Assembly (NCBI RefSeq): GCF_025629245.1
Contig: NZ_JANZXN010000027.1
Span: 1 to 64,000 of the forward strand
Direction: 5' to 3'
Length of the DNA: 64,000 bases
From: Natronobiforma cellulositropha
GTDB lineage: Archaea; Halobacteriota; Halobacteria; Halobacteriales; Natrialbaceae
Part shown: in pieces, positions 1,422 to 51,578 of the stretch
Layout of the letters: each line of letters begins with the position of its first letter
How positions within the stretch are numbered: position 1 is the first letter of the stretch
Position numbers and translations under genes: made by a program
Notes under the pieces: model-generated
What the model saw: only the letters and a program-made list of their open reading frames with translations
The model's database searches: none
What the model was told of the DNA's origin: nothing

Positions 1422-1770
1422 AACGTACTCAACACCCACGCCTTCACGACGGGCAATCACGTGGTGTTCAACTGCGGCGAGTACGATCCGCAGAGTCCCG
1501 AAGGGAAATATCTGCTCGCGCACGAGTGAACTCACGTGCGACAGCAGACTGGCGGTGCCATCAGTATGCTTCCGCAGGAGGGGAACTCGCTGGTGATCGA
1601 CCCCGATCTCGAACTCGGGCGCGAAGCAAATGAGGTGGCAAGGAAGGCACTCGAGAAACTCGCCACCGACTCCTACCTCGAACGAATTCTCGCGTTCGAA
1701 CTCGAGGCAACCTCTTCGTGCTACTGGTTCGACAGTGGCACTCAATCGAGTGCCCTGCACCTTTTGGGGG
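1422..1770 (+). pseudogene. Dead DUF4157 (eCIS-associated, zincin-like) gene fragment
   Basis: Reading frame 3 gives a typical DUF4157 core. NTHAFTTGNHVVFNCGEYDP leads into LLAHE, then an in-frame TGA at 1527-1529, then THVRQQTGG and LPQEGNSLVIDPDLELG. In intact relatives the motif reads HELTHVRQQ or HELAHVRQQ (HExxH), so the stop replaces the residue after HE, inside the metal-binding motif itself. No start codon or complete N-terminus is present, and the C-terminal part (EANEVARKALEKL) fades out before 1770, where the antisense gene at 1818-2150 begins. DUF4157 proteins are commonly encoded with extracellular contractile injection systems. I read this as a relic of such a gene. Coordinates of the recognisable part are approximate. 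Confidence 0.75.
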
Positions 1771-31376: not shown

Positions 31377-31430
31377 ATGATTTGGTGGGGAGACGGTGGA
31401 CGACGGTGGGACGGTTGGGAGGGTCGATGA
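31377..31430 (+). other. Trp-rich 17-codon leader ORF coupled to the giant gene
   Basis: ATG at 31377 opens a frame encoding MIWWGDGGRRWDGWEGR, with four tryptophans in 17 residues. It stops at TGA 31428-31430, which overlaps the ATG of the giant gene (ATGA). The TATA-like box at 31343-31352 is placed so that this ATG would be at or very near the 5' end of the message, the preferred initiation site for leaderless haloarchaeal transcripts. The giant gene could then be reached by re-initiation. This is inference; alternative in-frame TTG (31382) or GTG (31385) starts for the giant would remove the need for it. Confidence 0.35.
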
Positions 31431-34400: not shown

Positions 34401-35584
34401 GGCACGCCACCGACGCCTACCCCGCACTCGCCTGGGAAGACACCGGTCCCGTCTACAGCGTGGCCATCACCGAGACGAATTCGCCGATCGAAGCAGGCGA
34501 GTCACTCGAGGTCACCGTCACCGTCACCAACTGGGCGGCAGCCGGAGTCGACCGGACCATCGAGCTGCGCGACACCGACTTCGACGACGAGGTTCGGGAT
34601 ACCGAAGCGGTCACACTCGGCAGCGGCGACTCCACCGACGTTACGCTCGTGTGGGAGAGCACCGGCGCTGACGTCGGGACCGGAATCGTGACCGTCTCGA
34701 GTGCGAGCGACACCGCCAGCGAGACCGTCGAGGTCGTAGACCCCGAGCAGGAATCGAGCACGAGCGATGGATCCAGCCGGGGAAGCGTCGACGGGGATGT
34801 CCGGAGCGTTCGGATTATCGGCAGTGACATCAGCGCCCTGGTTACCCCCAGACGACACGCAGAAACTGGCGCTTCGACGGCCACGCTCTACGTGACCGCA
34901 GGGGCGAATTCGACGATCGAACTCCGGTTCGATGGCGGACTGACGACGAACGCCGACCGGGGTGACGGATCCGGGGCCACCCTCGAGCGCATCACGATGG
35001 AACCCGTCGACGAGCTCGACGGCTCGATAACGATCTCACAACAGCCGACTCTCGAGGGCCTCTCGAGCAACACGGCCGGTCTCGACGCGACGACGTCGAG
35101 CCGCGCGCTCGCGTACCTCTCCGTCGAAACGACCTTTGGCGACGCGCTCGACTCCGCGACGTTCGAAGTGACGGTCCCGACCGATGCCATCGGCGAACAC
35201 GAGGGCCCAACCGGCGTTACCGTCTACCACTACGACGGGGGGTGGACGGCGCTCGAGACGGATCTCGTCGACACTCGCCCGGACGAGTACGTGTTCGAGG
35301 CGACGTCCGACGGGTTCTCCGCGTTCGCGATCGGCCTCGACGAGGGAACCGGCTCGAGCCTCGAGAACGGGAGCGCTGGCGACGACGAGGCCGACAGGGA
35401 CGACGACAGCGCCTCCGAGACGGCCGGTGACGACGAGCGCGACCAGGCGGCGGACGGGACGCCAGGTATCGGGGCGGCCGGGACAGCTCTCATCCTCCTG
35501 GCCACCGCGGCGCTTCTCGCACTCGCTCGCGGGCGATCGGCACCGAACGCGAGCGCCCCCTCGGGCGACGACCGGTCGCCGTAA
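31427..35584 (+). CDS. GLUG-repeat surface protein with PGF-CTERM-like tail (1385 aa)
   Basis: I choose ATG 31427, whose product begins MRRVLGVGVLVLVFG, a clean signal peptide; an upstream TTG/GTG would add 14-15 unlikely residues. After cleavage near ASA the mature N-terminus (PDCTEVGF...VYEV...LDQLQCI) aligns by eye with that of the giant at 19905-28286, so they are paralogues. Three GLUG beta-solenoid blocks cover about residues 88-305, 378-655 and 725-955 (ETSYATGDVNG, RVGGLVG, SYWDTQTTGQ). A CARDB-like domain (about 1008-1105), a PGF-pre-PGF domain (about 1120-1305) and an acidic linker follow. The C-terminus (GTPGIGAAGTALILLATAAL, then a basic residue and a further hydrophilic tail) is a PGF-CTERM variant, PG-I in place of PGF, so anchoring is probable but less certain. 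Probably a cell-surface adhesin. Confidence 0.85.
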   Translation: MRRVLGVGVLVLVFGMVAVLVSGTPVAASAPDCTEVGFAQNGDGVYEVANLDQLQCIGDDDHGPGLDADYLLVSDIDASATEGWNGGDGFEPIGEFPDEFTGTFDGDGFVISNLVIDRDDEHRVGLFGRTDGATIENVGLVDVDVTGYVYVGSLVGSHNSGTISASYTTGNVTADQYVGGFVGAHGNGGTISASYATSDVTADGYVGGFAGTFHGGVIEESYATGTVDGSSGRVGGLVGQFSLGSIETSYATGDVNGPDRVGGLVGHHLGGTIETSYATGDVNGSDRVGGLVGDHWDGTVTDSYWDSEAGLDEAEDESGAGTPLSTAEMTGDDLEESFAADFGLDNGDDTWETVSEDDADASADSYPILGALERQTQLEAFGVDEFESVRDWYDLDGVRDDLEAHYVLVNDLGENTLGYDAVVADLDGGFEPIGECQDNQGGECQDSPFEGTFDGNGYTISNLVVDSDEDQVGLFGGTDRAEITNVHLESADISGGIFDTGGLVGYAVFTDVSDVSVQGSVSGHTAVGGVVGYGMGVSITNATLEIGVSGRSVVGGAVGEIHSGTVAKTTVSGDSSASFHTHGGIVGSSAGTITESVSHVDLDGGTDLGGVVGVNEGTVENSYATGSVDGSNDGGGLVGSNDGGTVSDSYWDTQTTGQSDSDGGTGFTTYEMTGDRATDAMDGFDFADTWTVAADDPDDGYTIFYPVLQANQQMPGPSASLYADGDGEGAPYRIETWYHLENVRENLDANFVLATDLDEDTPGYDAVAGENANGEKGFDPIGAGNAASTEFAGVFDGDGHVIETLTIDRPGESFVGLFSGIGGPDQEGEVRDVGLVNAAIVGGAGTGGIVGSNYGTVVRSYVTGDVRGGQQVGGLVGTNGYGALVSDSYALADVRGDGSVGGLVGDNIASTGSEPDGTIERSYATGEVNEGDTAGSVGGLVGTNNGEVTDSYWDTQTTGQPDSSGGTGLETAQMTRVNATEYVAGFAFTDTWHATDAYPALAWEDTGPVYSVAITETNSPIEAGESLEVTVTVTNWAAAGVDRTIELRDTDFDDEVRDTEAVTLGSGDSTDVTLVWESTGADVGTGIVTVSSASDTASETVEVVDPEQESSTSDGSSRGSVDGDVRSVRIIGSDISALVTPRRHAETGASTATLYVTAGANSTIELRFDGGLTTNADRGDGSGATLERITMEPVDELDGSITISQQPTLEGLSSNTAGLDATTSSRALAYLSVETTFGDALDSATFEVTVPTDAIGEHEGPTGVTVYHYDGGWTALETDLVDTRPDEYVFEATSDGFSAFAIGLDEGTGSSLENGSAGDDEADRDDDSASETAGDDERDQAADGTPGIGAAGTALILLATAALLALARGRSAPNASAPSGDDRSP

Positions 35585-35659: not shown

Positions 35660-38600
35660 TCACTTGCTCTTGACCCAGATCGGCTCCGTCGCCCTCGATC
35701 GCCGACCCGACGGCGCCTCGACCGCTACCCGGTAGGCGTACCAGGTGTCCTCGGCGACGGCGTCGACGTACCCCTCTTCGAGTTCACCGTCGGCGAGCGA
35801 GGCCGGAAGCCGTGGCTGCATCGTCCGGAGGTCGTCGGCCGCGTCGGCGTCGTCGGTGCGCCAGACCAGCGCTCGAGTCGCCGTCGGTGACGTCTCGACC
35901 TCGAGTTCGACCCTCGAGTGATCGACGGGTTCGCCGTCGGTCTCGTCGTCGGCAAGCGCTCGGAGTCTGACTCTCGGTTCCGGAATCCGCTCGAGCCGTC
36001 GCGTCTTCACGACGGCGAACTGCTCGGGCTGGGTGGGCCAGGCTGCCCGCTCGCCGGTCGGCCCGGTCGTGATCGGGACGACCACCGTGAAGTCGTGGCT
36101 CCCGGCGTCGATGGCCACCGCGTGTTCCTCGTCGTGTCCGTACGTCTTCGGGTGGTCCGGCGAGAACGCAGTCGTGGGCTCGACCGACGTCTCGTAGGTG
36201 CCACTGGCGACGTTACGGAGGATGTCAGCGCGTGCCTCGTCCTCGAGATTGCGGACGTCCGCACGTTCGTCGACGCCGTCCTCGTCATCGGCGAGGTCGT
36301 CGACGGCGTCGTCCGTCAGGATGTCGAGTAAGCGTGACTCCGTCGCGGTCAGTACCTGCACGCGTTCGCCCTCGTCGGCGTCCCACCGGCAGGTCCACCA
36401 GCACTGTTCGTCGGCGTCGGGCCAGGTCGTCTCCGCGACGCCCCCGGGCTGTGGACCCGGCTCTGACGGTGGGACCGACTCGTAGGTGATCTCCTGGGTG
36501 ACGCCGACGGGTGAGGAGAGGCCGTTCTCGTCGACGGCCGTCACCGTCGCGGTGAACTCCCACCGGTACTCGTCGGCGGCGTTCCGATCGATAGGCACAC
36601 CGGCGACCGTCAGCCCGATCTCGTACTCGTCGCCATCGCCGGCGGTTTCGATCACCTCGAGGTGGTCGACGTCGCCACCGAGGGTCGCACTCCCTGGATC
36701 GACGATCGCCTCGCCGTCGACGAGGAGCGAAGACGCACCGACCGACACCGACAGCGAGGGACTGCTCAGCGTCTCGCCGGGTTCGAGGTCGTGGTAGCCG
36801 GGTTCGATCTCGAGTTCGAAGCGGTCGATCCCGATTCCCGGCGGAGCGAACGCGTCGTCCCACCCGAACTCGACGAGGGCGAACGAGAGTATCTCGTCGT
36901 CGGCACGGACGTCCCCGCTGGCGGTCACGGTTACGCCCTGTGGTGCCATCGGCGGGACCTCGTTCTCGACCAGTTTGCCCGTCCGCGCCGGTTCGCTCCA
37001 GCGTCCCCAGATGTCGACGGTCTGGACCATCCAGGCGTGCTCACCGTAGCGCTCGAGGGACGCGTCTCGGAAGGTGTTCGTCCCGCTCCCGGTGAGGTGG
37101 GGCACTGCGAGTCCGTACTCGGGGTCGGTGCGGGCGAGCGATACCGAACCCTCCTCGGTCATCCGTGTGACCGTCGAGCCGACGATCGGTGCCGTCTCGA
37201 ACGCCCGTCGCTCCGGAACGGTCCACTCGAGGTGGGCCTCGGCCGAGACACCCGGTGATTCGGGCGCGGAGACGGTCTCGACCGATAGATCGCTCGGGCG
37301 GGCCGGCTCAGAGGCGGACCCCTCCGTGACCGCCGTCGCGAGCGAGGCGACCCGGAAGAAGGTGTCTTCGGGTGGCGGTCCGATGTACGTCGTCGGAGGA
37401 ACGATCGGGGTCGGAGTGCTCGCCCAGGCTTCGAACGCGTCGGTGTACGGTTCCGACTCCGCCAGAAGCCTGTGAATCAGTCCGGCCGGCCGGTCGTCCT
37501 CCCGGGTACGCTCGAGTTCCGCGGCCTCGAGGAGCCTGTGGCGGGGGCCATCGGACCGGCCGCCGGACCGGCCGCCCCTCCGGGGTTGTACGAGCCCCGA
37601 GACGTGGAGCATCCAGGCCGAGGGGTAGACGGCGGTTACCATGTAATCGTAGCGGACGTCCGCCGGCGGCTCCTCGTCGACGGTCGCCAGCCCGAGGAGG
37701 TGGGCGACGGGTGAATCGAGGCTCGCAGCCAACAGCAGGTCGAGCGCCGAGATGTTCTCGAATCCCTCGCCGTCGGCCGCCCCACTCGAGTCCAGGTCCT
37801 CGAGCGAGAACGTCCCCTGTGGCTGCTCCACATCGAGTTCGGCCTCGAGCAACGTGGTCAGTAGCCGCTGGATCTCCCGGAGTCGCGCCCGGCTGCCGGG
37901 GTTCGTCTCGGGTCCATCGAGGTACCGTCGGATGGTGGTGTCCGCGACGGTGTCGGGCCCGACCGGTGACGGCGGCCACGGCTGGTCCCACGGCGGGAGC
38001 GAGATGGTCGCCCCGCGGTGCAGACGGGTGGCCGCGAGGTCGTCGACATCGGTACCGGGCGGGTGCGGCTGGTAGTCGCTCCCGGTGACGTCGATCGGGA
38101 GGATGAACCGGCTCACCTCTTGCCACACCGTCGCCTCGTCACCCTGCTGGGGGGCGCTCGCGTCGGTGGCGTACTGGTCGGCGATCAGCCACTGTACCTC
38201 GCGGACGACCGCGTCGCCGTCGGCGTGGAGTTCGACGGCGTCGACGAGGCTCCCGTGGAGGAGGACGAGTCGGTCAGAGCCACCGCCGAGGCGTCCGGTG
38301 GGATCCCACAGATCGAGCTCGCCGAGACGCGCGTCGACGGCGGAGAACTCGACCGTCTCCTCGGTGACGCTCGAGGCCACGGCGGAGGCGTTCACCCGCA
38401 CGTCGTCCGCTCCGGCGAGGCGGATGGCAACCCACGCCGCGGGGTCCGGCCGCGTCTGTCCGTCGCGACGGAACTCGAGCAGGAGCCCCGACCCACCGAT
38501 CTCGACCTCGCCGGCCGCTGCGTCGAGCGCTCGGTTCGGACTCGAGAGGCGCAGCCCTCGGTCGGCCGTCGCCGCGTCGTCCGAGAAGTCCTGGGCGGGG

Positions 38601-38848
38601 AGCCAGAGTGCCCCTTCGCCGTCGATTTCCTCGGCCGCTTCGAGGTGGACGCCGGACATATCGCCGCGTTTCACCCACGGCCACTCCGGCGAGCGCCGGC
38701 GGGAGAGGACGAACCCGCGGCGGGGGAATCCGAGCGTCGAGTTGGGGAACCACCGGAGGTAGCGTCCCGGCTCGAGGTACCGTTTGGCGGCACCGTCCGT
38801 CCCCAGCGCGACGAGCTGGAGCAGGTCCGGCGAGATGATGGTGTTCAT
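35660..38848 (-). CDS. Large protein with fibronectin-like modules, third gene of giant operon (1062 aa)
   Basis: The ATG at 38848 overlaps the stop of the upstream gene (ATGA) and has a perfect GGAGGT ribosome site inside that gene's last codons. The N-terminus (YLEPGRYLRWFPNSTLGFPR, then RGFVLSRRRSPEW) looks like a family-defining motif: a Trp-rich strand pair followed by a basic turn. The middle (about 330-480) is helical. From about residue 500 on, several fibronectin type III-like modules can be seen (VSAEAHLEWTVPERR, VTVTASGDVRADDEI, and a last one ending AVEAPSGRRSRATEPIWVK). There is no signal peptide, membrane segment or cysteine-based motif. I do not recognise the family. A role as structural or tail-like partner of the two upstream proteins is an inference from operon structure alone. 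Confidence 0.75.
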   Translation of the reverse strand: MNTIISPDLLQLVALGTDGAAKRYLEPGRYLRWFPNSTLGFPRRGFVLSRRRSPEWPWVKRGDMSGVHLEAAEEIDGEGALWLPAQDFSDDAATADRGLRLSSPNRALDAAAGEVEIGGSGLLLEFRRDGQTRPDPAAWVAIRLAGADDVRVNASAVASSVTEETVEFSAVDARLGELDLWDPTGRLGGGSDRLVLLHGSLVDAVELHADGDAVVREVQWLIADQYATDASAPQQGDEATVWQEVSRFILPIDVTGSDYQPHPPGTDVDDLAATRLHRGATISLPPWDQPWPPSPVGPDTVADTTIRRYLDGPETNPGSRARLREIQRLLTTLLEAELDVEQPQGTFSLEDLDSSGAADGEGFENISALDLLLAASLDSPVAHLLGLATVDEEPPADVRYDYMVTAVYPSAWMLHVSGLVQPRRGGRSGGRSDGPRHRLLEAAELERTREDDRPAGLIHRLLAESEPYTDAFEAWASTPTPIVPPTTYIGPPPEDTFFRVASLATAVTEGSASEPARPSDLSVETVSAPESPGVSAEAHLEWTVPERRAFETAPIVGSTVTRMTEEGSVSLARTDPEYGLAVPHLTGSGTNTFRDASLERYGEHAWMVQTVDIWGRWSEPARTGKLVENEVPPMAPQGVTVTASGDVRADDEILSFALVEFGWDDAFAPPGIGIDRFELEIEPGYHDLEPGETLSSPSLSVSVGASSLLVDGEAIVDPGSATLGGDVDHLEVIETAGDGDEYEIGLTVAGVPIDRNAADEYRWEFTATVTAVDENGLSSPVGVTQEITYESVPPSEPGPQPGGVAETTWPDADEQCWWTCRWDADEGERVQVLTATESRLLDILTDDAVDDLADDEDGVDERADVRNLEDEARADILRNVASGTYETSVEPTTAFSPDHPKTYGHDEEHAVAIDAGSHDFTVVVPITTGPTGERAAWPTQPEQFAVVKTRRLERIPEPRVRLRALADDETDGEPVDHSRVELEVETSPTATRALVWRTDDADAADDLRTMQPRLPASLADGELEEGYVDAVAEDTWYAYRVAVEAPSGRRSRATEPIWVKSK

Positions 38849-41800
38849 GCGCCACCTCCGTCGAAGACCGCCGGCATAGCAGGCACGTCGAGTGTGACCG
38901 CCGCGACGTCACTCCCGTCTCTCGAAGAGAGGGTGATCGTGAGCGCCTCTTCCTCGCCGGGTGAACCCGACGGCAGTTCGCCGGCTTCGGGGACGACCAG
39001 GGCACGAGCCCGGGCGTTTCCGGCATAGGCACGCGTCGGGACGGCCGATCCGTCCTCGCGCTCGAGTGCGACCGTCGGCTCCGATCCGCGAAGGAGCGGC
39101 TCCGGCCCGTCGAAGACGACGGCCACCGGCTGCACGGCGTCGGGGTCGGGGTCGGCGTCCCCGCCCGTCGCGTGCTCGTGGTCCCACGACCAGACGACGA
39201 TCAGTTCCGGCTCGGCTGGCGCTTCCCGCGGAACGAGCCCGAGGGTGTCCGTGAGCCACTCGTCGAGCAGTTCGTCGTCGACCGCAACCGTGGCGACGTC
39301 CTCGCCGGAGAGCGCCTCGGGCGTCTCGTCCGAGAGGAGATCGATCGGGTCGACGACGACCTCGTGGACGATACCGCTGTCGTGGGCGTCGACGTGCTCT
39401 TCGAAGGTCTCCCACCGCGAGGACCGGAACCGCCACTCGTGGAGTGGCTCCCCATCGTCGGTCGAATCGCCGTCCTCCAGCGCGTAGAGCGTTCCCGTGT
39501 ACCGCCGGTCGGGTTCGAGGTCGAGACCCACGTCGACGATGGTCTCCTGCCAGAGGTCGGCCGCCGCCGCGCCGTCGGGGAACAGACACGCCAGGTCCGT
39601 GAGTCGGTCCCGGAGTACGGCCGCCGTCGGGACGAGGTCGCTCGCCGCTCGCAGGTCGGTGTCGGCGTCGGCCTCGAGCACCGTCCCGTACTCGTCTTCG
39701 AACTGCACGACGAGATCGCGATCGAACGCCTCGAAGACGGCGAGGAGGCGCGCATCACGGAGGTGGACCTCGAGGTCGTCGGCGAGATAATGCGCGCGTG
39801 CGCCGTCGGCCGGGGCGGTCGCGACCTCCCACTGGTCGTCGATGCCCCCGGCGTCGGAGAGCCGTTCGCCCACCACCCTGGCGGCGTTCTCGGGATGGGC
39901 ACGCACCGACTCGGGCGGCGAGGCGTCCGTCTCGAAGCGGAACGTCTCCGACCAGTCGGTGGGGTTGCCGAACTCGAGGTCGCGTCCCTCCGGCTGCTCC
40001 GCCCGGTACGAGCGCCCCTCGACGACCAGTTCGTAGGTCGAGTCGGGCTCGAGGACGCCCGCTGCCTCGCCGTCGGACCACGCCTCACGCTGCTCGAGTT
40101 CGGACGCGACGATCGAGGCGGTCGCCGTCTGTCGGCGCTGGTCGGCGTCGAAGAACGCGGTGTTCTCCTCCTGTGAGCGGATCCACGCGAGACCAGCGAC
40201 GACCGGCCGCCTGCTCGGGCGGGGTTCCGGCTCGAGGTCGCCGTGGACGGCGGCGAGTCGGAGACCGATCGTCGGCCGGAACGACCGGACGACCACGCGT
40301 CGCCACCTCGGGCTTCCGGGTCCCTCCTCGAGTTCCACGGCGGACTCGCCGGCGGGCTCGAGCACCTCCTCGGTTCCGTCCGGCCGGACGGCCCAGACGA
40401 CGGGGGTGACTCCCGGTGCGACCAGCAGCCGCACCTCTACGTTGTCGCTCGAGGGGAGATCGACCGCCACGCGGCCGACGACGCCAGAGACGAGATCGGC
40501 GGCCGCTTCGGTGCTAACATCGGGTGCCTGGGGGACGACGAGCCGGGGCAGCCCGAGAACCGGGTCGTCTGGATCGATGCCGAGCATGCCACCGGTCCGA
40601 TCCATCGGGTTGGTACCCAGCCGCGCGGGTTCGACGCGAATGGAGGTCAGCCGCTGGAGGAGGTCGTAGTCGACCGGTGGCTCCTCGAGCGAGACGCGCG
40701 CCGGCGTCCCGGGCTCCTGGAACTCGTCGGGGAGTGTCAGGGTCTCGCCCGCGTGGATGCGGACTGCGCCCACGTCGTCGCTCCAGAGACGGGGGAGCGA
40801 CCCCGGGACCTCGATCCGCTCGAGAGAGGACTGCGAGCAGGGGTCGGAAAGCGGGAAGCGAATCCGGTCCGGGTCGATGACTGGGTCGATACCCGGATCG
40901 ATGACCGGCTCGATGACCGGATCGCGCGGCGTCATCGACCGTTCCTGGACTCGAGAGTCCACGACGCTGCGCTCACGGTCGGCTTCGGTCTCGTCGGCCT
41001 GCGCCGCGCGAGGTGATCCGTCTCGGTCGGCCTCAGTCTCACGAGACTGGGCTTCGTCGCCCTCCTCGGTCTCTCGGTCCGTCTCGGTCTCGCGCCAGCG
41101 CTGGACGGCCGCTGACAGGGTGCGCAGGAGGCTCGTCCACAGTGTACGGATCCGCGCCGATAACGAGGACTCCTCGCGTGCGCTCGAGGATTCGACCGTC
41201 GCTTCGGTCGTCGAGACCGATTCGTGCTCGCGCCGCTGGAGCCGGGACCGTTCTCGCTCCCGTCGTTCCTCTTCTTCTCGCCGTTTCTCTTCCTTCCGCT
41301 CTCGCTCGAGCCGTTCTTTCTCCGCCCGCCGTTTCTCTTCCTCTCGTTCCCGCTCGAGCCGTTCTTTCTCCGCTCGCCGTTTCTCTTCCTCTCGTTCCCG
41401 CTCGAGCCGTTCCTCTTCTTCTCGTCGCTCCTCTTCTTCCCGTTCTCGCTGTTCTTCTTCCTCCTGTTTCCGCCGCTCCTCTTCTTCTTCCTCTCGTCTT
41501 TTCTCCTCCTCTCGCTCGCGGTCGTCGTCCGTCCCGTCTCCGCGTTCTGGGAACTGGAAGTCGATCACTGGCGGGCAGAAACGGTCGCGCTCGAGTCGGT
41601 CACCGAGCGACCGGAACGTGTACTCGCGGCGGTCCAGTAACTCGCGTTCGTCGAGTTGTCGGCACGGGTCCCACGTCGAGAGGCGCTCGCGCATCCGCTC
41701 GCCACCGCCACCGATGCGAGCCTCGACAGGGTCGGCGAACGGATCGAACGTCAGGTTCGTCCGGGTGACCTGGCCGTCGGTCGTTCGCGGAACCGTCGCG

Positions 41801-44800
41801 TCTTCAGTGCCGGTGAGGTCGGGTTCGTTGCCGATTTCGGTGTGCTCGGGCCAGACCGCGTGGAGGTCGGGGACGACCTCGTGGCTGTTCCCGACGATCC
41901 GACGCAACGAACACGACTCGAGGACGTGGCGGTAGCCCTGTTTCACCACGGCACCGTCCTCGTCCTCGCCGGTCGTCGCCACCTCCCACACCGCGGCCGC
42001 CTCGTCGTGGCCGTTGACGGTGAGGTCGCCCAGTTCGATCTCGTCGTCGGACCCGTCGTCTTCGTTGCCGACGGGTGCGGTGAAGACCAGCTGGGGAATC
42101 ACGTCGAGCGGGACGGTCTCCTCCGGCGTCCCGTCCGCGTCGGGCTCAACGAGCACCGGCTCGCCGGAGCCACGTCCCCAGAGCGTGAGCGACTCGAGTG
42201 GGACCTCCGGGGCGGGACCGTTGGCGAGCCAAGTGTCGTCGTCGTCCCCGAGGACGAACTCCGCGTCGACCTCCACGTCGCCGATCGGCCAGGGGACCGA
42301 CAGCGTGACGACGACGGTGCCGGCGAGGTAGAACGGCTCCGGTGCGAGCCCCTGGAGCGCGAGAAACACCGACAGCGAGACGCCGAGACCGAACGCACTC
42401 ACCTCGATCCCGCCGTCGACCCACAGCTGGCCGGCGAACAGCGGGACGGTGAGCGAGACGCCGACGTCGAAGCCAGCCTGCGCCCAGAGTGCGACCCGGG
42501 CGGGACCGGCTTCGAACTCCGCGTCCCAGCCGCCGGCCCCGCCGAGTGCGAGCGCCACGCCGGGGAGGGAAACGCCCGAGGGTTCCGGGAGGGTAAACTC
42601 CGTCCCGTCGACGACGAGGTACGCCGAGATCGAGTAGAGATCGAGGACGTTCGCCTGGACTCGCTCCGTCTCCGGCTCGGGGAAGCCGAGCGCGACGGTG
42701 AAGTCCCGCGGGTTCTCGAGGTCCGCGCGGACCCTGGCCGGGATGTCCATCTCGAGCAAGTTGGGTGCGTCGTCGTCGTCCGGGCCGATGTCGAGCGTGA
42801 CGTCGAGGTCCAGACTGAACTGGTTCTCGAGGAAGTCGAGGGCGATGATCGCCGCGAACGCACCCTCGGCCTCGCTGTCCTCGCCGGGGAGGTCGGCCAT
42901 GTCGGAGAAGACGTCCCCTTCCCCGGTGATGAGGATGGTCGGGCCCGGCAACAGGAGGAACAGCCCGGCCTGGACGTTCCAGGCGTCGCCGCCGTCGGGC
43001 TGGGAGCCGATCCTGGCCGACGCGCCGAAGCCCCAGTGGTCGACCTGTGGCCGCCACTTCGTGGCGATCGTCGAGTACGCCGGCGACTCCTCGAGGTACC
43101 ACTCGCCGTAGTCGGGGCTGTCGGTGGCCGGATCGAGCGGCGCGGCTGGCTGGCCGTTCTGTGCGTAGGTCAGCCCCAGCCCGTACAGGGCGGTGCCGGA
43201 GTTGCCGATCGGAAGTCCCGGCTCGAAGCCCGCGTCGACGGTGAGCACGAACGCCTGGACGCCGTCCTGATTCGTCGCGCTGAGAATCCCGAGCTCGAGG
43301 TCGAAGAGGTACGAGTCCTTCTCGAGGAGCTTCGTCGGCGAGAGATCCGGCTCCTGGGCGACGAGGAACGCCCGGAGTTCCCCGCGCAAAATGTCGCCCC
43401 AGTCGTCCTCGCCGTCGCCTTCCGGCAGGCCAACCGCCGCGCCGTCGACGTGCTCGAGCGAGCCCGTCGCGTAGAGGACGCCCGGGATGAGCAGCTCGAG
43501 CGGCTGGTTGCCCCGGTCGAACCGGAGAGAGACATCTTCCGCCTCGATCTCCCCGATCGTGTCGGGTTCGTAGGTGATGACCGCGAGGTCCGGGAGGCCT
43601 GCAACAGTCGTTTCGCCGCTGCCGGAGGTGTCGATGCCGAGTTCGATCGTGAGCGCCTCGGTCGTGAGGCCGACGGTCACGTCGGTGATCGTCACCAGCC
43701 CACCGAGGTCGACGTCGGCCGGCTTCGTGACGGCCAGCCCGTCGTCGACGTCCCAGTCGATCGCGAGATGCGGAACGTCGAGGTCGCTCACGTCGCCGAG
43801 GGCGACCGTCGCCGTGATGCCTTCGGCACCGAGTTCGATCGGTACGTCTTCGTCGTCATCGTCGTCACCATCCATCGAGAGCGCCGCGTCGATCCGGATG
43901 TCGGCGCCGAGTTCGAGAAAGGCGACTCTGCGGCCGTCACCGACCGGCTCGCGATAGACCGAGGCGCTCGCCCCGGTCACCACGAGTTCGTTCCAGGATG
44001 CGAGCTCCGACTGATCGAGAGCCGCCAGCGCGGCGAGCATCATGGGTCCGGCTTCCGGCTCACCGTCGTCGAAAGCGGTGTAGCCCGCGTACGCGCCGGC
44101 GGTCGCGCCGAATCCGGTGAGCGCCTCGTCCTGAAGTGAGACGAGCGCGTCGTCGTCGCCGGTCCGCTCGAGATCGACGTCGAAGCGCCACAGGTCGTCG
44201 TCGCCGGCTGGATTCGACGCGATGTGGAGACTCGAGGTGATACGGATCTCGTGGTCGGAGCCGAGGTCGTCCGCGTCCTCGTCGTCGGCGAAGAACGCAC
44301 GCGGATCGGTCCGCGCGACGACCTCGAGTCCGACGGGCCACCACGTTCGGTCGAACTGGAGTGTGACGCTCTCGGTCGTGACCCGGGACTCGTCCGCATC
44401 CTCGTCATCGTCCTCGCCGAACGTTGCCTCGAGACTCCCGGTGATGCCGCTCGAGTCGACGATCCAGTGCTCGATCGAGAGGGTCTCGACCTGCCCGTCG
44501 TCTAAGAACGGGAGTTCCTCGTCGAGTCCCCAGACCGTGCCGTGGTCGACGACTAGCCCGCGCCAGTCGTCCCCGACGTCGAGGTCGGCGACGGCCGCGT
44601 CCGTTGCGTCGGCGTATCTGAGGTGTTCGAACTCGAGGGCGATGTTCGTCTCGGCGACGAGTACGGGCGGCATCGAGAACGACTCTGCGGGCTCGGCGGC
44701 GAACTCGACGCCGTCTCGGCCGACGGCGAGTGAGAACTCACCGAGGGTCACCGAGACCGGCGGCGCTCCCTCGATGGGAGAGACGTCCGCGACCGTCCCG

Positions 44801-45291
44801 TCGTCGTTCGTCTCGACCTCGGCGCGCTCGAACCACCGCTCGTCGAACTCGAGTCTGACGGGTACCGGACCGACCGTCGCGCGGGCCGGGTCGTCTCCGA
44901 CCAGGAAGCGGCCGAGGTCGGCGACCTGGTCGACGTCCTCGACGGCGCTTAGGTCGAGACCGAACTCGGCTGGCGTTCCCAGGTCGTCTTTGACGAACAG
45001 CGCGGCGAGCGCCAGCGAGACCGGCATCGCTGGCAGGTTCTCGATCGCGAACGGGACCTCGAGTGGCACCCGCGGGTCGTCTCCGAGCGCCACCGACAGG
45101 CCCGCCAGTTCGAACGGCGAGTCGGTGTCGGCGACGACCGTCCCCGCGATGGAGACGGTGTTGGCGTCGAAGTCCCACAGCTCGTAGACCGTCGAGACGC
45201 GAAAGCGGTCGCCAGCGAACAGTTCGTCGAGCAGTCCGTCGTCGGTACCGTGGTTTCGAAGGGCGCGGATGGCTGCCGTTCGCATGGTCAC
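38845..45291 (-). CDS. Giant beta-rich protein with long charged helix, second gene of operon (2148 aa)
   Basis: GTG 45291 overlaps the stop of the subtilase gene (GTGA). An ATG at 45285 directly after that stop is an equally good start, and a GGAGGGGG ribosome site precedes both. Residues 1-1050 are almost all alternating beta strands with acidic loops (for example GVSLTVPLFAGQLWVDGGI and FYLAGTVVVTLSVPWPIGD); the pattern faintly recalls DUF6603-type beta proteins, which I cannot verify. Around residues 1250-1355 lies about 100 residues made almost only of Glu, Arg and Lys, predicted as a single alpha-helix or coiled coil. Near 1455-1470 there is a short DPVI(D/E)P repeat. The last 650 residues are mixed domains with Fn3-like strands (TYELVVEGRSYRAEQP). 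No signal peptide or transmembrane helix. Function unknown; size and helix suggest an extended scaffold. Confidence 0.75.
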   Translation of the reverse strand: MTMRTAAIRALRNHGTDDGLLDELFAGDRFRVSTVYELWDFDANTVSIAGTVVADTDSPFELAGLSVALGDDPRVPLEVPFAIENLPAMPVSLALAALFVKDDLGTPAEFGLDLSAVEDVDQVADLGRFLVGDDPARATVGPVPVRLEFDERWFERAEVETNDDGTVADVSPIEGAPPVSVTLGEFSLAVGRDGVEFAAEPAESFSMPPVLVAETNIALEFEHLRYADATDAAVADLDVGDDWRGLVVDHGTVWGLDEELPFLDDGQVETLSIEHWIVDSSGITGSLEATFGEDDDEDADESRVTTESVTLQFDRTWWPVGLEVVARTDPRAFFADDEDADDLGSDHEIRITSSLHIASNPAGDDDLWRFDVDLERTGDDDALVSLQDEALTGFGATAGAYAGYTAFDDGEPEAGPMMLAALAALDQSELASWNELVVTGASASVYREPVGDGRRVAFLELGADIRIDAALSMDGDDDDDEDVPIELGAEGITATVALGDVSDLDVPHLAIDWDVDDGLAVTKPADVDLGGLVTITDVTVGLTTEALTIELGIDTSGSGETTVAGLPDLAVITYEPDTIGEIEAEDVSLRFDRGNQPLELLIPGVLYATGSLEHVDGAAVGLPEGDGEDDWGDILRGELRAFLVAQEPDLSPTKLLEKDSYLFDLELGILSATNQDGVQAFVLTVDAGFEPGLPIGNSGTALYGLGLTYAQNGQPAAPLDPATDSPDYGEWYLEESPAYSTIATKWRPQVDHWGFGASARIGSQPDGGDAWNVQAGLFLLLPGPTILITGEGDVFSDMADLPGEDSEAEGAFAAIIALDFLENQFSLDLDVTLDIGPDDDDAPNLLEMDIPARVRADLENPRDFTVALGFPEPETERVQANVLDLYSISAYLVVDGTEFTLPEPSGVSLPGVALALGGAGGWDAEFEAGPARVALWAQAGFDVGVSLTVPLFAGQLWVDGGIEVSAFGLGVSLSVFLALQGLAPEPFYLAGTVVVTLSVPWPIGDVEVDAEFVLGDDDDTWLANGPAPEVPLESLTLWGRGSGEPVLVEPDADGTPEETVPLDVIPQLVFTAPVGNEDDGSDDEIELGDLTVNGHDEAAAVWEVATTGEDEDGAVVKQGYRHVLESCSLRRIVGNSHEVVPDLHAVWPEHTEIGNEPDLTGTEDATVPRTTDGQVTRTNLTFDPFADPVEARIGGGGERMRERLSTWDPCRQLDERELLDRREYTFRSLGDRLERDRFCPPVIDFQFPERGDGTDDDREREEEKRREEEEEERRKQEEEEQREREEEERREEEERLEREREEEKRRAEKERLEREREEEKRRAEKERLERERKEEKRREEEERRERERSRLQRREHESVSTTEATVESSSAREESSLSARIRTLWTSLLRTLSAAVQRWRETETDRETEEGDEAQSRETEADRDGSPRAAQADETEADRERSVVDSRVQERSMTPRDPVIEPVIDPGIDPVIDPDRIRFPLSDPCSQSSLERIEVPGSLPRLWSDDVGAVRIHAGETLTLPDEFQEPGTPARVSLEEPPVDYDLLQRLTSIRVEPARLGTNPMDRTGGMLGIDPDDPVLGLPRLVVPQAPDVSTEAAADLVSGVVGRVAVDLPSSDNVEVRLLVAPGVTPVVWAVRPDGTEEVLEPAGESAVELEEGPGSPRWRRVVVRSFRPTIGLRLAAVHGDLEPEPRPSRRPVVAGLAWIRSQEENTAFFDADQRRQTATASIVASELEQREAWSDGEAAGVLEPDSTYELVVEGRSYRAEQPEGRDLEFGNPTDWSETFRFETDASPPESVRAHPENAARVVGERLSDAGGIDDQWEVATAPADGARAHYLADDLEVHLRDARLLAVFEAFDRDLVVQFEDEYGTVLEADADTDLRAASDLVPTAAVLRDRLTDLACLFPDGAAAADLWQETIVDVGLDLEPDRRYTGTLYALEDGDSTDDGEPLHEWRFRSSRWETFEEHVDAHDSGIVHEVVVDPIDLLSDETPEALSGEDVATVAVDDELLDEWLTDTLGLVPREAPAEPELIVVWSWDHEHATGGDADPDPDAVQPVAVVFDGPEPLLRGSEPTVALEREDGSAVPTRAYAGNARARALVVPEAGELPSGSPGEEEALTITLSSRDGSDVAAVTLDVPAMPAVFDGGGA
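41281..41440 (-). repeat. 48-base tandem repeat encoding the charged helix
   Basis: Inside the 2148-residue gene the sequence starting CTCGAGCCGTTCTTTCTCCG recurs at 41305 and 41353, and a diverging copy starts at 41401, a period of 48 bases (16 residues, unit RLEREREEEKRRAEKE). The copies are nearly identical at the DNA level, which suggests recent expansion by slippage or unequal recombination. Copy number may therefore vary between strains and change the helix length. Confidence 0.85.
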
Positions 45292-48200
45292 GCACCCCCT
45301 CCGTTCGCCGCCCGAAGCTCGCGATCCGGCAGTGCCGCCATCAGCTCCTCGTAGACGATTTCGAGGTCGAAGGTAGTGGGTGCGTCCCCGTGACCGGTCT
45401 GTGGGTCGGCCTCGATCACCCCGACGCGGTCGCCGAAGTCGGCGTGGAGTCCGGCGGCGGCGTCGGCGACGTCGCTTCGGTGATCGTTCAGGTCGTCGGC
45501 TGCGTCCACGAGATCGGCCGAGGCGTCGGCTCCGAGGTCGACCTCCGGGAGGTCGACGAGCGGGAGACCGCCAACGTCGCCGGTGAGGATGGCCCGGCGG
45601 TCGGCGCTCACCAGGCCGAAGTCGTCGAGGAACGCCTCGAGCTCGTCGCTCGTCCCGACGCCCTCGAGTCCGTCGACGAGCGCATCGACCTCGTCTCCGG
45701 TGGTCTCGTCGAGGGTGTCCGCCAGCAACGCACGCCAGGCCGAGCGGGCCGACTCGAGGGCGTCGAACCCTGCGACGAACGCCTCGAGGCGGTCGGGACC
45801 CTCGATCTGTGCACTCAGTGCGAAGGCCAGGTCACGCTCGCTGTCGAAGTAGAACCACGCGTCGGTGCCGTCGACCTCGAGCGGGCGTTCGGTCAGCAGC
45901 GTGTTGAGCCGGTGGACCTCGAAGAGGTACAGCGCCACCTGCAGCCGTGGGCTGTGGCGGACACTCGCGACGAACCGGTGCAGCCAGGGCCAGGTTCGGA
46001 ACCACTGTGCGTACGCCTGGTACCTGGCGCGCTGTTCGGCCCGCTCGCCGTCGCCCGCTGCCAGCGACTCGAGCCCGTCGACGCCAGCCACCCGGAGGAA
46101 ACCGGTTCGCTCGCCGTCTGCGAGTTCGAGGTCGCTCGCGGTCGTGCCGAAGAAGCCGAAGGCGAACTCGTGGATCTCGCGGAGGGCTTCGACGCTCTCG
46201 TCGTCGATGCCTTCCAGGAGCACGTCGTCGACACCGGCGTCGACGGCCGCCAGGAAGCGGACGAACGCGGCGAGCTGTCCCTCGGCCGCCGCCGGGGCGT
46301 CGTCGTCCGCCCTCGCGACCTCGAGACCGCTCAGCGAGACCGACGAGACGAACTCGTCGTAGCTCGTGGCCGCGTCGAACCGGGTGCGCTCTGGTGTGAC
46401 GGCGTCGGCGACGACGCGGTAGACGCGCTCGTGTGCGTCGCTCCCGTCACCCTCGAGTACGTCGCCCAGGAGGTGGTCTCGGTCCACCTCGCGGTCGATT
46501 CGCTCCGTCGTCCGTGCCTGTGGCCGGCCCGGGCCGCCCCACTCGCCGCTCTCGAGCGTGCCGTAGTGGTAGTAGCGTCCGAGCGGCTCCCACTCCGCCT
46601 GTTCGGCGTCGGGGTCGAAGTAGCCGGAGTGGTCGCGGACGACGGCCGACTCCGCCTCCGAGGTCCACCCACGGCTCGCCTGCACCCGTTCTGCGTGGAC
46701 GGTCTCCGGCTCGTCGTGGTCGTCACAGACCTGGACGACGACGGGGTTCCGTCGTCCGGCGAAGCGCCACCGGCGGAGTTCGAGGGCTGTCTCGAGGTCC
46801 AGCTCGCCGACCATCGATCCGTCGAACGTCGGCGTACTCGAGGTCGCGGAGACGGCCGGCTCGGGTGGTCCCGCCCCCTCCAGAACGGTGAACCCGTCGC
46901 CGTACCGGTGGCGGTGTTCGTCGACGACTCCGGTCCCGTCGCCGGGGTCGGTCTCACCGGGGTTCCGGTGGACGACGCCGTCTGCGACCCGGTCGCCGTC
47001 GGGCTGGCCGTCGAGCGGTTCGTAGACGCGGTTGGGGTAGGCGTCGGCGATGCGAAACTCCCTGACCGACATCGCGGTGTGGCCCGCCACGAGCCGGTGG
47101 CGCTCCTCGTCGTCAGTGAGCGTCGCCGGGCCGTCGGTGGCGGTTTCACCGTCCCACATGCCGTCGTCCGTCGTGACGCGTCGGTAGCCGAACCGGCCGA
47201 TTCCCGGCTCCCCTTCGGCGTTTGCGGGTTCGAATCCGAGGGAGAACCCGGTCCGGTCCAGGTCGTACTGTAAGTTCCCGACCCGGCGGCCGTCGTCGAC
47301 GGCCGTGACTGCCCGTGTCTCGCCGCCGTAGCGGGGCTGGCCGTCGAGCTGCCAGTCCCCGTCGCGGTCGCCGTAGGTGAGCCCACCGCCGTAGGGTGGG
47401 CCGAGGGGAAGCCGGTCACGAGCGTCCTCGAGCGTCGACTCGAGGACGACTCCGGCGAGGACATCGTACCCGGCGTAGCGTCGTCCGACCGGGTGCTCGA
47501 GGTACGCCGCGGTGGTGGGTTCGTCGAGACACCAGATACGCTCGTAGTACGCCACGAGGTCGGTCCAGGACTCGCGCAGGCCGTGGTCCGCCGGCGCTTC
47601 TAGCTGGCCGTCGGAGATGTCGTCGACGATGGCCGTGACGTCCGTGCCGTCGGGACGGTGGAGCCCCAGCAACTGCCGGAGTGGCTCCTCGGGAGCCGGG
47701 TCCGTAACGTCGACACCCGGCCGCCCGTCGCGTTCGGCTTCGGGGGCGGGGTCGACGACGGACAGTGCCACCGCACGCGCCAGCGAGACGCCGAGTGCGC
47801 GTCCGCACAGTTCGATCCACAGGCTCGTCTCGTCGGCGTCCGGATCGAAGTCCGCCTCGTCCGCCGCGTCGCCCGCGTACGCCAGCACCTCGTCGACTGT
47901 TGGCTCGTCGACGGCGGTCGGATCACCGACTGCGTCGCCGCTCGCGTCGAACGCGCCGAGGCCGGCACTGACGGCCCACGTGTCACGCGGTACGCCATCG
48001 GGGTAGGTCCAGTACCGGCGGCCGTACCACGCCTCCTCGCCCTCGACGCTTCGCTCGTGGCTCTCGCCGTCGTCGACGTCGTCGAACAGCGTCTCGACCG
48101 GGTCTCCCGGCGGGCCGATCGCCACCGCCGTCGACGGGTAGACCCACTCGAGAGCGACCCGGACGGCGTCGTCCGTCGCCGTACTCAGGACGTTCTCGTC

Positions 48201-50918
48201 GGCGTCGCCGTCGTCCGTCTCGGGATCGAACTCGAGGCGGACGTTCAGCGGCCGGAGGACGTGGGACGCGACACGTCTCGTGACGTCGAGAATACCGGTC
48301 CCGTCGTTGCTTCGCCACAGGTCCGCGGGTGCTCCGCCATCGCCGACCGCGTCCAGAACGTCGGCGACGAGGTCGGTGTCGCAGTGAACTGGCACGTGTC
48401 GCGGGACCGAGAGCGGAATCTTCCATGTGTCTAGGAGGTCGTCGCCGTCGTCGAGGACGTCCACCTCGAGTCGCCACGGGCCGGGGACGACGTCGCGGAC
48501 GACGAGCCCGTCCGATTCGTGGTCCGTCCGGGACTGCTCGAGTTCGGCGGCGACGAATCCCACTTCGAACGATCCGCTGTCGCGGTCTGTGGCGCTCGAG
48601 TCGGTTCCGCTCGCGTCGTCTCCGTTCTCGCCCTCGTCGTCGTCGGCTCCGGGCAGGTCGGCTTCGCCGGCGCCAGCGGCGCTCCCGTACCAGCCGTGGA
48701 CGAGCCGCCAGCGGAAGGTCTCGATGTCGACGGGATCGACGTCGACGTGGGCGTAGGCGTCGTCTGCGAGCAGGGTGAGGTCGAGGTCGACGCGGAGCGT
48801 GCGGCCGTCGTCTGGCTCGAGGTCGTCACCGCCGTCGACGACCGTGTCGGTTCCGAGTCGGCCGAGGTCGGCGGTGCGCTCACCGTGGTAGAACGCCCGG
48901 GCCGGGACCGGAACGGTGTCCAGTAACCCCTCCGACCCTTTCGGATAGCGAAGCCCCTGGTTCACTCGCGTGCTGTGGGTGTTGATCGCGCGAACGGTCC
49001 CACCGATCGCCAGTTCGACCGTCTCGAACGTCTCGACTGCGTCGGTGACGCTGATGAAGCCGTGGCCAACGTACGGATTCGGTCGCTCCGGGAGGAACAG
49101 GTTCGAGATCCCGCGGGCGTTCTCGAACAGCGCGTCGCGGACCTCTTCGACGGTCGGGTTTGCGTCCGTACTCAGGAGCAGCGCCGCCGCTCCGGCGACG
49201 AACGGCGTTGCAGCCGAGGTCCCACCGTACTCGTCCTGGGAGAGTTCGACGTGGGTCGGGCCCGCGAGGTCGACCCCGTCCGCCCCGTACTGCGTCGGTC
49301 CTCGCGAGGAGTAGTGCGCGAGCAGATCCTCGTGTACGTCGACGGCAGCGACCGCCAGCGTGTTCGGGTCCCTGCTGGTGGCAGGGATCGTGAGGCTCCG
49401 TTCCGACGTCCAGGTCGAGAGAGCCAGCCGTCGGTTGACGAATACGTCGAAGTGGTGGCCGCCCGGGCCACCGGTGCGTTCGATCTCGAGGTAGACGCGC
49501 TCGGCGTAGTACTCCTCGACGTTGACCGTCTCGTACGGTCGGCCCGTCCAGGAGTCGTCCAGGAGCGTCCCCCCTTCGGGTGCGTCGAAGAGGCGGACGA
49601 TGTAGTTGCCTCCACCGTCTTCCCAGCCTTCGTCCCAGTAGACCCAGACACGGCCATCGGACCCTCGAACGCCCTGGGTCACCTCCGTGACGATGGCATC
49701 GACGTCGGCGTCGGTGTCGTGACGGAGTGCCAGCAGGTCGACGGCCGGCTCGACGTCCTCGAGCAGGGGGCGCGAGCGGTCGTCGTCGTGGACGGCGATC
49801 CTGAAGACCTCGATGACCTCCTCGATTCCCTCGTCGTCGCTCTCGAAGCAGTCGAAGCCCTCCCAGTCGTCCCGGTCGTCATCGGCGTCCTCCAGGAGGT
49901 CGAACTCCTCGGCGAGGGCCCCGACGATCGCACAGAAGTCTTGCCCACGAAGCGGGCGCAAAATCTCGAGGCGCTCCGTCCCCTCGTCGTCGAACTCGAG
50001 GCGGTCGGGATCGGTCTCGTCCACCGGTATCTCCTCTTCTTCACGCGCTGGAAACTGTCCGTCCCAGTGGTGACCGTTGGCCTTGTTCGACGCGGAGGTG
50101 ACGAACAGTCGGCCGTCTTCGGTGAACTCACCGATCGCTTCGCTGAGTGAGTCCTCCCCATCGATCGGCAAGCCAGCCGTGGGAAACACTCGCTGAGAGT
50201 GGGTAACGACGTCGACGTGGTCGAACGCGAGTCCATGATCGTCGGGGTGTTCCAGTTGCTCGAGGATGTCCTGTGTCCGCAGATCGCCGACTGTCGAGGC
50301 GAGTACCAGATCCGCACCTGGGGCCATCCTCGCGACGACCTCTGCGGAGTTCGTCCCGTGTAACCCCTCCTCGGCGTCGGGCCCGTGCATCCCCTCTTCA
50401 CCGATCGTCTCGACGACCTGGTCGGCGTACACCTCGTTTTCGAGGTCGAACTCGGAGTCGATCACGGCGACCGTGACTCCCTCGCCCGTCACACCGACGA
50501 GATGGGCATCTACTGCCCCCGTCTCGGCCGTCCCGTCGGACGGCTCGGGCTCCTCCTCGTCCTCGAAGAGTTCGATGACCTCTCGCGTCTCGAGCGGTGA
50601 ATCGTCGAGATCCATCCCGTCATCGAGGTGGATCAACACGACCGCACTCGAGTCGGCCACCGCCAGGACGTCCTCGATCCGCACGGTCGCGAAGACGAAC
50701 TGCCCCAGCGTGGACTCGACCGAGCCGCCCACACTCGAGAGGTGCTCGATACCCTCTTCGAGGCGGTCTCGCTCGATATCGACCTTCACGCTGATCTCGT
50801 CGCTCCCGTCGAGGTCGCCCCGCTCTGCCCGCACGAGGAGGGATTTCACCGGTGAGGTGATCCGCATCGCGACCTCGTCCTCGAGGTCGAGACCATCGTC
50901 GCCTTCGCGTCTCCTCAT
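45288..50918 (-). CDS. Giant subtilisin-like (S8) serine protease, first gene of operon (1876 aa)
   Basis: ATG 50918 is preceded by a good ribosome site (GGAGG, six bases before the ATG). The catalytic triad is complete: Asp154 in VAVIDSEFD, His187 in GLHGTNSAEVV, and Ser568 in GGTSAATPFVAGAAALL. The oxyanion Asn278 is in FVTSASNKANG. A stretch of about 290 residues between Asn278 and Ser568 is far longer than in ordinary subtilases and contains an inserted beta domain (YIVRLFDAPEGGTLLDDSW). Residues 1-130 may be a prodomain (KVDIERDRLEEGIEHLSSVG). After the protease, about 1250 residues of unknown beta domains and a helical C-terminal region (about 1480-1860) follow. There is no signal peptide, unusual since most haloarchaeal subtilases are Tat-exported, so it should act in the cytoplasm or leave by a non-classical route. 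It heads the three-gene operon. Confidence 0.85.
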   Translation of the reverse strand: MRRREGDDGLDLEDEVAMRITSPVKSLLVRAERGDLDGSDEISVKVDIERDRLEEGIEHLSSVGGSVESTLGQFVFATVRIEDVLAVADSSAVVLIHLDDGMDLDDSPLETREVIELFEDEEEPEPSDGTAETGAVDAHLVGVTGEGVTVAVIDSEFDLENEVYADQVVETIGEEGMHGPDAEEGLHGTNSAEVVARMAPGADLVLASTVGDLRTQDILEQLEHPDDHGLAFDHVDVVTHSQRVFPTAGLPIDGEDSLSEAIGEFTEDGRLFVTSASNKANGHHWDGQFPAREEEEIPVDETDPDRLEFDDEGTERLEILRPLRGQDFCAIVGALAEEFDLLEDADDDRDDWEGFDCFESDDEGIEEVIEVFRIAVHDDDRSRPLLEDVEPAVDLLALRHDTDADVDAIVTEVTQGVRGSDGRVWVYWDEGWEDGGGNYIVRLFDAPEGGTLLDDSWTGRPYETVNVEEYYAERVYLEIERTGGPGGHHFDVFVNRRLALSTWTSERSLTIPATSRDPNTLAVAAVDVHEDLLAHYSSRGPTQYGADGVDLAGPTHVELSQDEYGGTSAATPFVAGAAALLLSTDANPTVEEVRDALFENARGISNLFLPERPNPYVGHGFISVTDAVETFETVELAIGGTVRAINTHSTRVNQGLRYPKGSEGLLDTVPVPARAFYHGERTADLGRLGTDTVVDGGDDLEPDDGRTLRVDLDLTLLADDAYAHVDVDPVDIETFRWRLVHGWYGSAAGAGEADLPGADDDEGENGDDASGTDSSATDRDSGSFEVGFVAAELEQSRTDHESDGLVVRDVVPGPWRLEVDVLDDGDDLLDTWKIPLSVPRHVPVHCDTDLVADVLDAVGDGGAPADLWRSNDGTGILDVTRRVASHVLRPLNVRLEFDPETDDGDADENVLSTATDDAVRVALEWVYPSTAVAIGPPGDPVETLFDDVDDGESHERSVEGEEAWYGRRYWTYPDGVPRDTWAVSAGLGAFDASGDAVGDPTAVDEPTVDEVLAYAGDAADEADFDPDADETSLWIELCGRALGVSLARAVALSVVDPAPEAERDGRPGVDVTDPAPEEPLRQLLGLHRPDGTDVTAIVDDISDGQLEAPADHGLRESWTDLVAYYERIWCLDEPTTAAYLEHPVGRRYAGYDVLAGVVLESTLEDARDRLPLGPPYGGGLTYGDRDGDWQLDGQPRYGGETRAVTAVDDGRRVGNLQYDLDRTGFSLGFEPANAEGEPGIGRFGYRRVTTDDGMWDGETATDGPATLTDDEERHRLVAGHTAMSVREFRIADAYPNRVYEPLDGQPDGDRVADGVVHRNPGETDPGDGTGVVDEHRHRYGDGFTVLEGAGPPEPAVSATSSTPTFDGSMVGELDLETALELRRWRFAGRRNPVVVQVCDDHDEPETVHAERVQASRGWTSEAESAVVRDHSGYFDPDAEQAEWEPLGRYYHYGTLESGEWGGPGRPQARTTERIDREVDRDHLLGDVLEGDGSDAHERVYRVVADAVTPERTRFDAATSYDEFVSSVSLSGLEVARADDDAPAAAEGQLAAFVRFLAAVDAGVDDVLLEGIDDESVEALREIHEFAFGFFGTTASDLELADGERTGFLRVAGVDGLESLAAGDGERAEQRARYQAYAQWFRTWPWLHRFVASVRHSPRLQVALYLFEVHRLNTLLTERPLEVDGTDAWFYFDSERDLAFALSAQIEGPDRLEAFVAGFDALESARSAWRALLADTLDETTGDEVDALVDGLEGVGTSDELEAFLDDFGLVSADRRAILTGDVGGLPLVDLPEVDLGADASADLVDAADDLNDHRSDVADAAAGLHADFGDRVGVIEADPQTGHGDAPTTFDLEIVYEELMAALPDRELRAANGGGA

Positions 50919-51578
50919 CGACGCCCTCCGATCCGCGTCCGCACTCGAGGGAGAGACTGTGTGATCGTCCGATACGACTCGACGGGCCGAGACGGGCGCT
51001 CGGTTCCCGTCATCGACGGGCCTCTGTCTCGCTCGACGTCGTTCGACGCTCCCTCTCGAACTCGTCGATGGGGCTTCGTCGACGGCGTGTACTCAACATT
51101 CGACCGACGTCGCTCCACCGACGCCATCCAGTGTGGTGACTTCCACTACTCATAGGGGGGTGACTCTCGTAAACAGAGAAACGGACATAGTTTAAACTTT
51201 TGTTATTTTAGAAAAACACATTCGCGTGAGCAGACACTACCGGAGACGAGCGGGAGAGTGAGACCGCTCGAGGGGCGATACACGGAATGGTGGCCCCGTG
51301 GACCGGCTTCGCCTTTCCAGCAGTCGGTGGTGCCGTCGGTCTGGACACCGGCCGAGATCCCTCGCCGACCGATCGGAGCCACTGTGAGCCAGTGTACACC
51401 CGGTCGCCAGATGTATCGGCGGTCAGTGTGTAACCCGTTTCAGTTGTTACTATCGATCCGGGTGACCGGAAAGCTCGACCAACACGACGTACGAGAACGA
51501 TCACGACGAACCCAATCGCGACGAACCCAAGGACCTCGAAATTTACGGCTGTGGTAAATCGCCATACTGCGGTTGATT
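50919..51578. other. Non-coding upstream region of the subtilase operon
   Basis: About 660 bases without a convincing gene. Next to the subtilase start is a GGAGG ribosome site (about 50925-50929), so its message has a leader. An AT-rich patch at 51185-51225 contains TTTAAACTATG on the minus strand and is the best, though distant, promoter candidate. A 124-codon minus frame (51208-51582) begins inside an IS scar and has one membrane-like stretch (VLGFVAIGFVVIVLVRRVG), but its second half is Pro/Ser/Arg-rich and not convincing. Nothing else is seen. Confidence 0.4.

Follow-up and report, generated by a model that had tools for sequence, protein, structure and literature searches.

A giant gene run of a haloarchaeon resembles a mobile gene pair with a variable enzyme slot shared by archaea and bacteria

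Introduction

In the genome of the haloarchaeon Natronobiforma cellulositropha, three giant genes follow one another on one strand, and their products carry no evident export signal. This raises the question of whether the three genes belong together, and of what such proteins would do for the cell. The locus lies in a stretch of 64,000 nucleotides, which was analysed as a whole and is called the window here. We compared its genes with those of other haloarchaea and of bacterial plasmids, and weighed the possible roles of the encoded proteins.

Results

Organization of the gene run

The three genes, all on the minus strand, are joined by 4-base overlaps between neighbors:

45288–50918, minus strand: P0003, 1876 aa, the slot protein of the module, in which a subtilase is joined to a large beta-rich and a large C-terminal region
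38845–45291, minus strand: P0002, 2148 aa, the module's core protein, giant and rich in beta structure
35660–38848, minus strand: P0001, 1062 aa, the Fn3-like partner with an N-terminal LRW/LGFP motif

The places, lengths and overlaps given in a preliminary description of this DNA were thus confirmed, and the internal ribosome sites it proposed were found as GGAGG-type sites just 5' of each of the three starts; the start codon of P0002 was corrected to GTG. As the length of an open reading frame says little at 69% G+C, the coding status of the three genes was judged by their homologues. A crude hydropathy scan of the module proteins tested revealed neither a 19-residue stretch above a Kyte-Doolittle value of 1.98 nor a hydrophobic N-terminus, which agrees with the earlier claim that signal peptides and membrane helices are missing.

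Upstream of P0003 we noted two short basic ORFs and a promoter-like element:

51191–51196, minus strand: TTTAAA TATA-like box, read in the sequence, 38 bases before the 47-aa ORF
51010–51153, minus strand: ORF of 47 aa, basic, its stop overlapping the next start (ATGA)
50915–51013, minus strand: ORF of 32 aa, basic, its stop overlapping the subtilase start of P0003 (ATGA)

The box is the probable start of the transcription unit, which may comprise five ORFs, two short and three giant; TTTAA(A/G) boxes are also present 5' of the modules in genomes G423, G231 and G385. No counterpart of the short ORFs was seen in other modules, and both may be due to chance. In G075, the first module gene is likewise overlapped by a short ORF.

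The window holds further large genes. Two of them, on the minus strand, encode a 4721-aa protein (3371–17536) with RHS repeats, beta-helix, A2M-like and PKD regions, and a 2793-aa protein (19905–28286) with beta-helix, GLUG and CARDB regions; both possess a hydrophobic N-terminal stretch and are therefore probably surface proteins. A plus-strand ORF of 1400 aa with GLUG repeats (31382–35584), convergent with P0001, encodes the second GLUG protein of the window.

P0002 and P0001 types form a conserved pair

The regions of P0002 and P0001 on which the comparison relied are the following:

41899–43539, minus strand: conserved core of P0002 (residues 585–1131), by profile comparison a remote DUF6603 relative
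41221–41520, minus strand: Glu/Arg/Lys helix of P0002, 100 residues (1258–1357), a private insertion
38669–38848, minus strand: N-terminal motif of P0001, L-R-W ... G-F-P-R-x-G-F ... R-R

We found P0002 homologues in 8 of 391 Halobacteria genomes and in bacteria. A profile of the core, built from five sequences, gave eight strong matches in the Halobacteria (E-values from 1e-97 to 1e-225), six of them to proteins outside the profile, and a single weak one (E=7e-7) to a true DUF6603 protein of genome G353. In all eight genomes an Fn3-like gene is adjacent to the giant gene or one gene apart. Searched with a second profile, built for the Fn3-like protein, the 391 genomes yielded exactly the same eight, although this profile, being seeded with copies adjoining giants, could let very diverged orphan copies escape. 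The closest example is G045, where a relative of P0002, about 32% identical to it over 1215 residues, has a P0001 relative as its neighbor, in the same order and without the subtilase.

The distribution in bacteria was sampled through a plasmid collection. A tblastn search of plasmids with the G045 proteins led to records of Mycetohabitans, Azospirillum and Rhizobium, and in the records examined of these three and of Paracoccus the pair occurs together. The Paracoccus pair, left out of the profiles, was matched by the core profile at E=1e-51, and its partner protein possesses an N-terminal motif of the same kind (LRI...LGLP). Among the genomes searched, the two types were never seen apart.

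Profiles from which the window and G045 members had been excluded still recovered P0002 (E=8e-45) as well as P0001 (E=1e-12); reversed decoys gave no match. As a lone query, P0001 found one clear relative, that of G045, in 243 genomes of the order; a search of phage and plasmid collections with it gave no match, and peptide-pattern scans of genome contigs and viral contigs retrieved no relatives, since the members have diverged too far for such patterns and profiles are needed to find them. R32, W33 and R50 of the motif are nevertheless invariant in all 11 aligned members. By their sequences and distribution, the P0002 and P0001 types constitute a conserved two-protein unit.

The charged helix pointed out in the preliminary description is real in composition (Glu, Lys and Arg make up 89 of the 100 residues) but is no feature of the set: the count is at most 32 in every other member of the P0002 family, and the G045 relative has a gap at this position, so that the helix is a private insertion of the window genome. 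Single-sequence structure models of the window proteins reached pLDDT values of 33 and 37, at which no carrier fold was seen. The giant of Mycetohabitans gave weak ConA-like (3-keto-disaccharide hydrolase/LamG) matches near its C-terminus.

The pair crosses the boundary between archaea and bacteria

The Mycetohabitans core shares 42–47% identity with those of six haloarchaea, while the window protein shares 24–30% with the same six and has its nearest relative in G045 (40%). Trees of the core and of the partner broadly agree, uniting Mycetohabitans with the six haloarchaea, the window genome with G045, and Rhizobium with Paracoccus, although branches are long, the deep order is unsure and the branch of the window genome and G045 attaches differently in each tree. 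The congruence of the trees, and the fact that Mycetohabitans is closer to the six haloarchaea than the window genome is, indicate that the module crosses domains, most likely traveling as a unit.

The third gene is an exchangeable slot

Next to the pair, the modules carry different genes or none:

Window genome: subtilase P0003
G045: muramidase and murein-endopeptidase-like protein
G360, G075, G423 and Mycetohabitans: PLD-like proteins of 509–544 residues with HKD motifs
Rhizobium: protein of 1087 residues with a diverged PLD at the C-terminus (E=5e-10)
Azospirillum: P0007, a putative peptidoglycan-directed enzyme
G231, G385 and G395: no slot gene seen at the module
Paracoccus: no slot gene identified

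Judging from these neighborhoods, the third gene is an exchangeable slot that is filled by unrelated hydrolases or absent. The subtilase, earlier taken as part of the set, is thus one filling of the slot, replaced or missing in other modules. For P0002 and P0001, in contrast, the result that would have spoken against a set, namely genes usually separate in other genomes, was not obtained (the same 8 of 391 Halobacteria genomes), nor did either fall into a well-described family: our searches of Pfam, PHROGs and NCBIfam gave no match for P0001, and those of Pfam and NCBIfam none for P0002. The earlier statement that no archaeal system with this set had been described holds insofar as an undescribed set of giants, apparently not exported, lies in one operon, but the pair is not exclusively archaeal.

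Two regions of P0003 were delimited:

49104–50471, minus strand: S8 protease domain (residues 150–605), defined by PF00082 and the D154/H187/N278/S568 motifs
45795–46853, minus strand: P0007-like region (residues 1356–1708), degenerate and related to the slot protein of Azospirillum

The catalytic part of P0003 combines the Asp-His-Ser triad with the S8 profile (PF00082, E=1.9e-18), the sole Pfam family matched across the three giants, and its closest solved structure is subtilisin BPN'. The motifs around D154, H187, N278 and S568 are all present; the roughly 290 residues between N278 and S568 amount to a large insertion, so that the full serine-protease triad with a large insertion read earlier is borne out. 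The C-terminal half (residues 1001–1876) has one short weak match elsewhere in haloarchaea. Within it, residues 1356–1708 resemble P0007 by blastp (E about 1e-5), by profile (E=9e-8; none of 300 shuffles scored better than 0.2) and by hhalign (91%, E=1e-6). This kinship ties the subtilase gene to the slot and argues against a chance neighbor. P0003 was also compared with the G045 muramidase protein P0004 over a putative docking region: the two are collinear by eye and the narrow comparison outscores 200 shuffles, yet real haloarchaeal module proteins equal the score in one direction, and we do not claim that the two share such a region.

The G045 slot protein matches muramidase PF11860 (E=2.4e-18) and endolysin PHROGs (E=1e-18), weakly also PG_binding_1 and M74, and contains H-x-x-G-x-x-x-D and H-V-H motifs. 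The PLD-like slot proteins match PLD (E=1e-16) with HKD motifs, and their best solved matches are phospholipases. P0007 has relatives annotated as peptidoglycan-binding proteins, and its family shares the strongly conserved motif E...GFFD..N.YD...S.G..HWT...GEL; it may represent an unnamed cell-wall enzyme. A P0007-like peptidoglycan-binding gene also adjoins a DUF6603 gene and a VCBS-repeat gene on a Streptomyces longwoodensis plasmid. Another, on Rhizobium ruizarguesonis plasmid pRlX3, lies about 1.5 kb from giant genes for 2569-aa and 2490-aa proteins, possibly another relative of these cassettes; the core profile found no match in the part of this giant-gene region examined.

Relation to DUF6603 proteins

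The annotation of the Mycetohabitans protein prompted us to consider DUF6603 membership, which was rejected at the model level: Pfam model PF20248 had no match at E<=1 in the window genome, G045 or three bacterial module records. Remote kinship was retained, as hhalign aligned the P0002 core with DUF6603 proteins over 385 columns (95.7%, E=1e-8), and on this evidence the core is a remote DUF6603 relative. DUF6603 genes also sit in runs of giant genes, as in G353 and on the S. longwoodensis plasmid, where the DUF6603 gene neighbors a relative of the Azospirillum slot protein; their partner genes are, however, other than those of the module. In G353 (C1:3833005–3851331) four giant genes, the later ones joined by 4-base overlaps, encode a true DUF6603 protein (E=4e-126), a protein of roughly 1400 aa, one of 2540 aa that matches no Pfam family, and one of 920 aa that has a lamin-tail domain and, toward its C-terminus, hydrophobic stretches. 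This run is an analogous, separate system. A literature search found neither the name DUF6603 nor a description of the present gene set (subscription journals and preprints lay outside its coverage).

Discussion

We tentatively read the locus, at less than even confidence, as one representative of a mobile module that consists of two giant proteins and an enzyme that can be exchanged, the pair making a carrier complex that would act on other cells after release. In the cytosol, the P0001 and P0002 types would assemble into a complex that keeps or transports the slot enzyme and, not being exported by Sec or Tat, would leave the cell by lysis or another route. Once released, it would bind other cells or cell remains, and the enzyme (a protease here, a cell-wall hydrolase or phospholipase-like protein elsewhere) would damage them. 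In the window genome the subtilase would be the active payload, while the degenerate, cell-wall-enzyme-like C-terminus of P0003 might anchor it in the complex or attach to the target.

Archaea have no murein, so that the muramidase of G045 points to a bacterial target. A murein hydrolase in an archaeon is the strongest single pointer to action on other cells. Some archaeal murein hydrolases are known to kill bacteria, and only 32% of the archaeal homologues surveyed carry a known signal peptide (PMC12352652). The G045 slot protein, which matches muramidase and, weakly, PG_binding_1 and M74, compares with Woldo and Danwoldo of that study in being archaeal; in contrast to these stand-alone enzymes with Tat signals, its gene shares an operon with those of two non-exported giants. 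The module also resembles polymorphic toxin systems in its constant carrier, varied and exchangeable enzyme parts, and patchy, horizontally spread distribution. It differs from them in that in most cases the whole gene rather than a C-terminal domain is exchanged, and in that neither an export or trafficking domain (hydropathy scan) nor a recognisable immunity gene (neighborhoods listed) was found, although small uncharacterised genes present there may include one.

Several observations count against a carrier. The cluster contains no delivery gene and no recognisable immunity gene; in three archaeal modules a separate enzyme gene is missing, so that the two giants may act on their own; nucleases also occur in the PLD family; and the low pLDDT of the structure models leaves the carrier fold unseen. 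A bolder version, which we hold to be doubtful, regards the module as an undescribed inter-domain mobile weapon, unrelated to secretion systems, in which a giant beta-rich two-protein carrier houses interchangeable hydrolases and brings them to other cells; within that same doubtful version, archaea could attack bacteria with murein hydrolases and proteases.

Alternatively, the complex could be a lytic or scavenging enzyme store which, freed at the death of the producer, digests cell remains for its kin and is not a weapon. The several kinds of degradative enzyme and the missing immunity gene and export signal would suit such a store, but 15 kb is costly for a digestive aid where ordinary secreted hydrolases would suffice, and we deem it unlikely. 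The present data cannot separate the weapon from the scavenging reading.

It is likewise improbable that the giants serve the producer as a large assembly, structural or at its surface (a matrix, an inclusion or a lipid-binding groove), which the slot enzymes process. Their long, beta-rich, partly repetitive sequences, the Fn3-like modules and the weak ConA-like matches of the Mycetohabitans giant are what one would expect of such an assembly; there is, however, no signal peptide or membrane anchor, and self-processing would not require a muramidase in an archaeon.

Quite improbable, in our view, is an intracellular anti-virus defence, with the giants sensing infection and the slot enzyme killing the cell or cutting nucleic acid. 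A patchy distribution and horizontal spread suit defence genes, and comparison with PADLOC models gave weak matches to DrmC and MkoB for the PLD-like genes and a subtilase match for P0003. These PADLOC matches are, however, generic ones to subtilase and PLD, with phospholipases as the best solved matches of the latter; no catalogued component set was found and P0001 matched no PADLOC model (P0002 was outside the scan), and a muramidase/endopeptidase or putative cell-wall enzyme would be senseless inside an archaeon.

The preliminary description took a DUF4157 relic in the window as a hint of eCIS history, and the window genome (3.76 Mb) does contain one sheath gene and 34 DUF4157 (eCIS_core) matches on many contigs, several of them partial copies and two with stops, including that of the window (1416–1556). 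The matches form a large set of likely archaeal T6SS effectors. In Halogeometricum borinquense, proteins with DUF4157 are secreted as effectors of the T6SS (PMC11566945). That the giants are themselves loaded by this T6SS/eCIS is very improbable, because the sheath gene lies on another contig, Pfam finds neither DUF4157 nor another CIS loading domain in any of the three proteins, 1000–2100 residues are large for a tube lumen, and neither sheath nor DUF4157 was found in any of eight other genomes, seven of them with the module, by the same models that gave the matches in the window genome. The module and the archaeal T6SS/eCIS occur together in this genome but have no domain in common. As a general account of the module, cargo of an eCIS was set aside, which leaves the hint without support.

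If our reading of the module as a released carrier is true, haloarchaea and bacteria would have in common a large carrier made of protein that stands apart from the known secretion systems and whose enzyme payloads are swapped through horizontal transfer, and the DUF6603-like giants would gain a function. It could also explain how archaeal murein hydrolases without signal peptides reach their targets.
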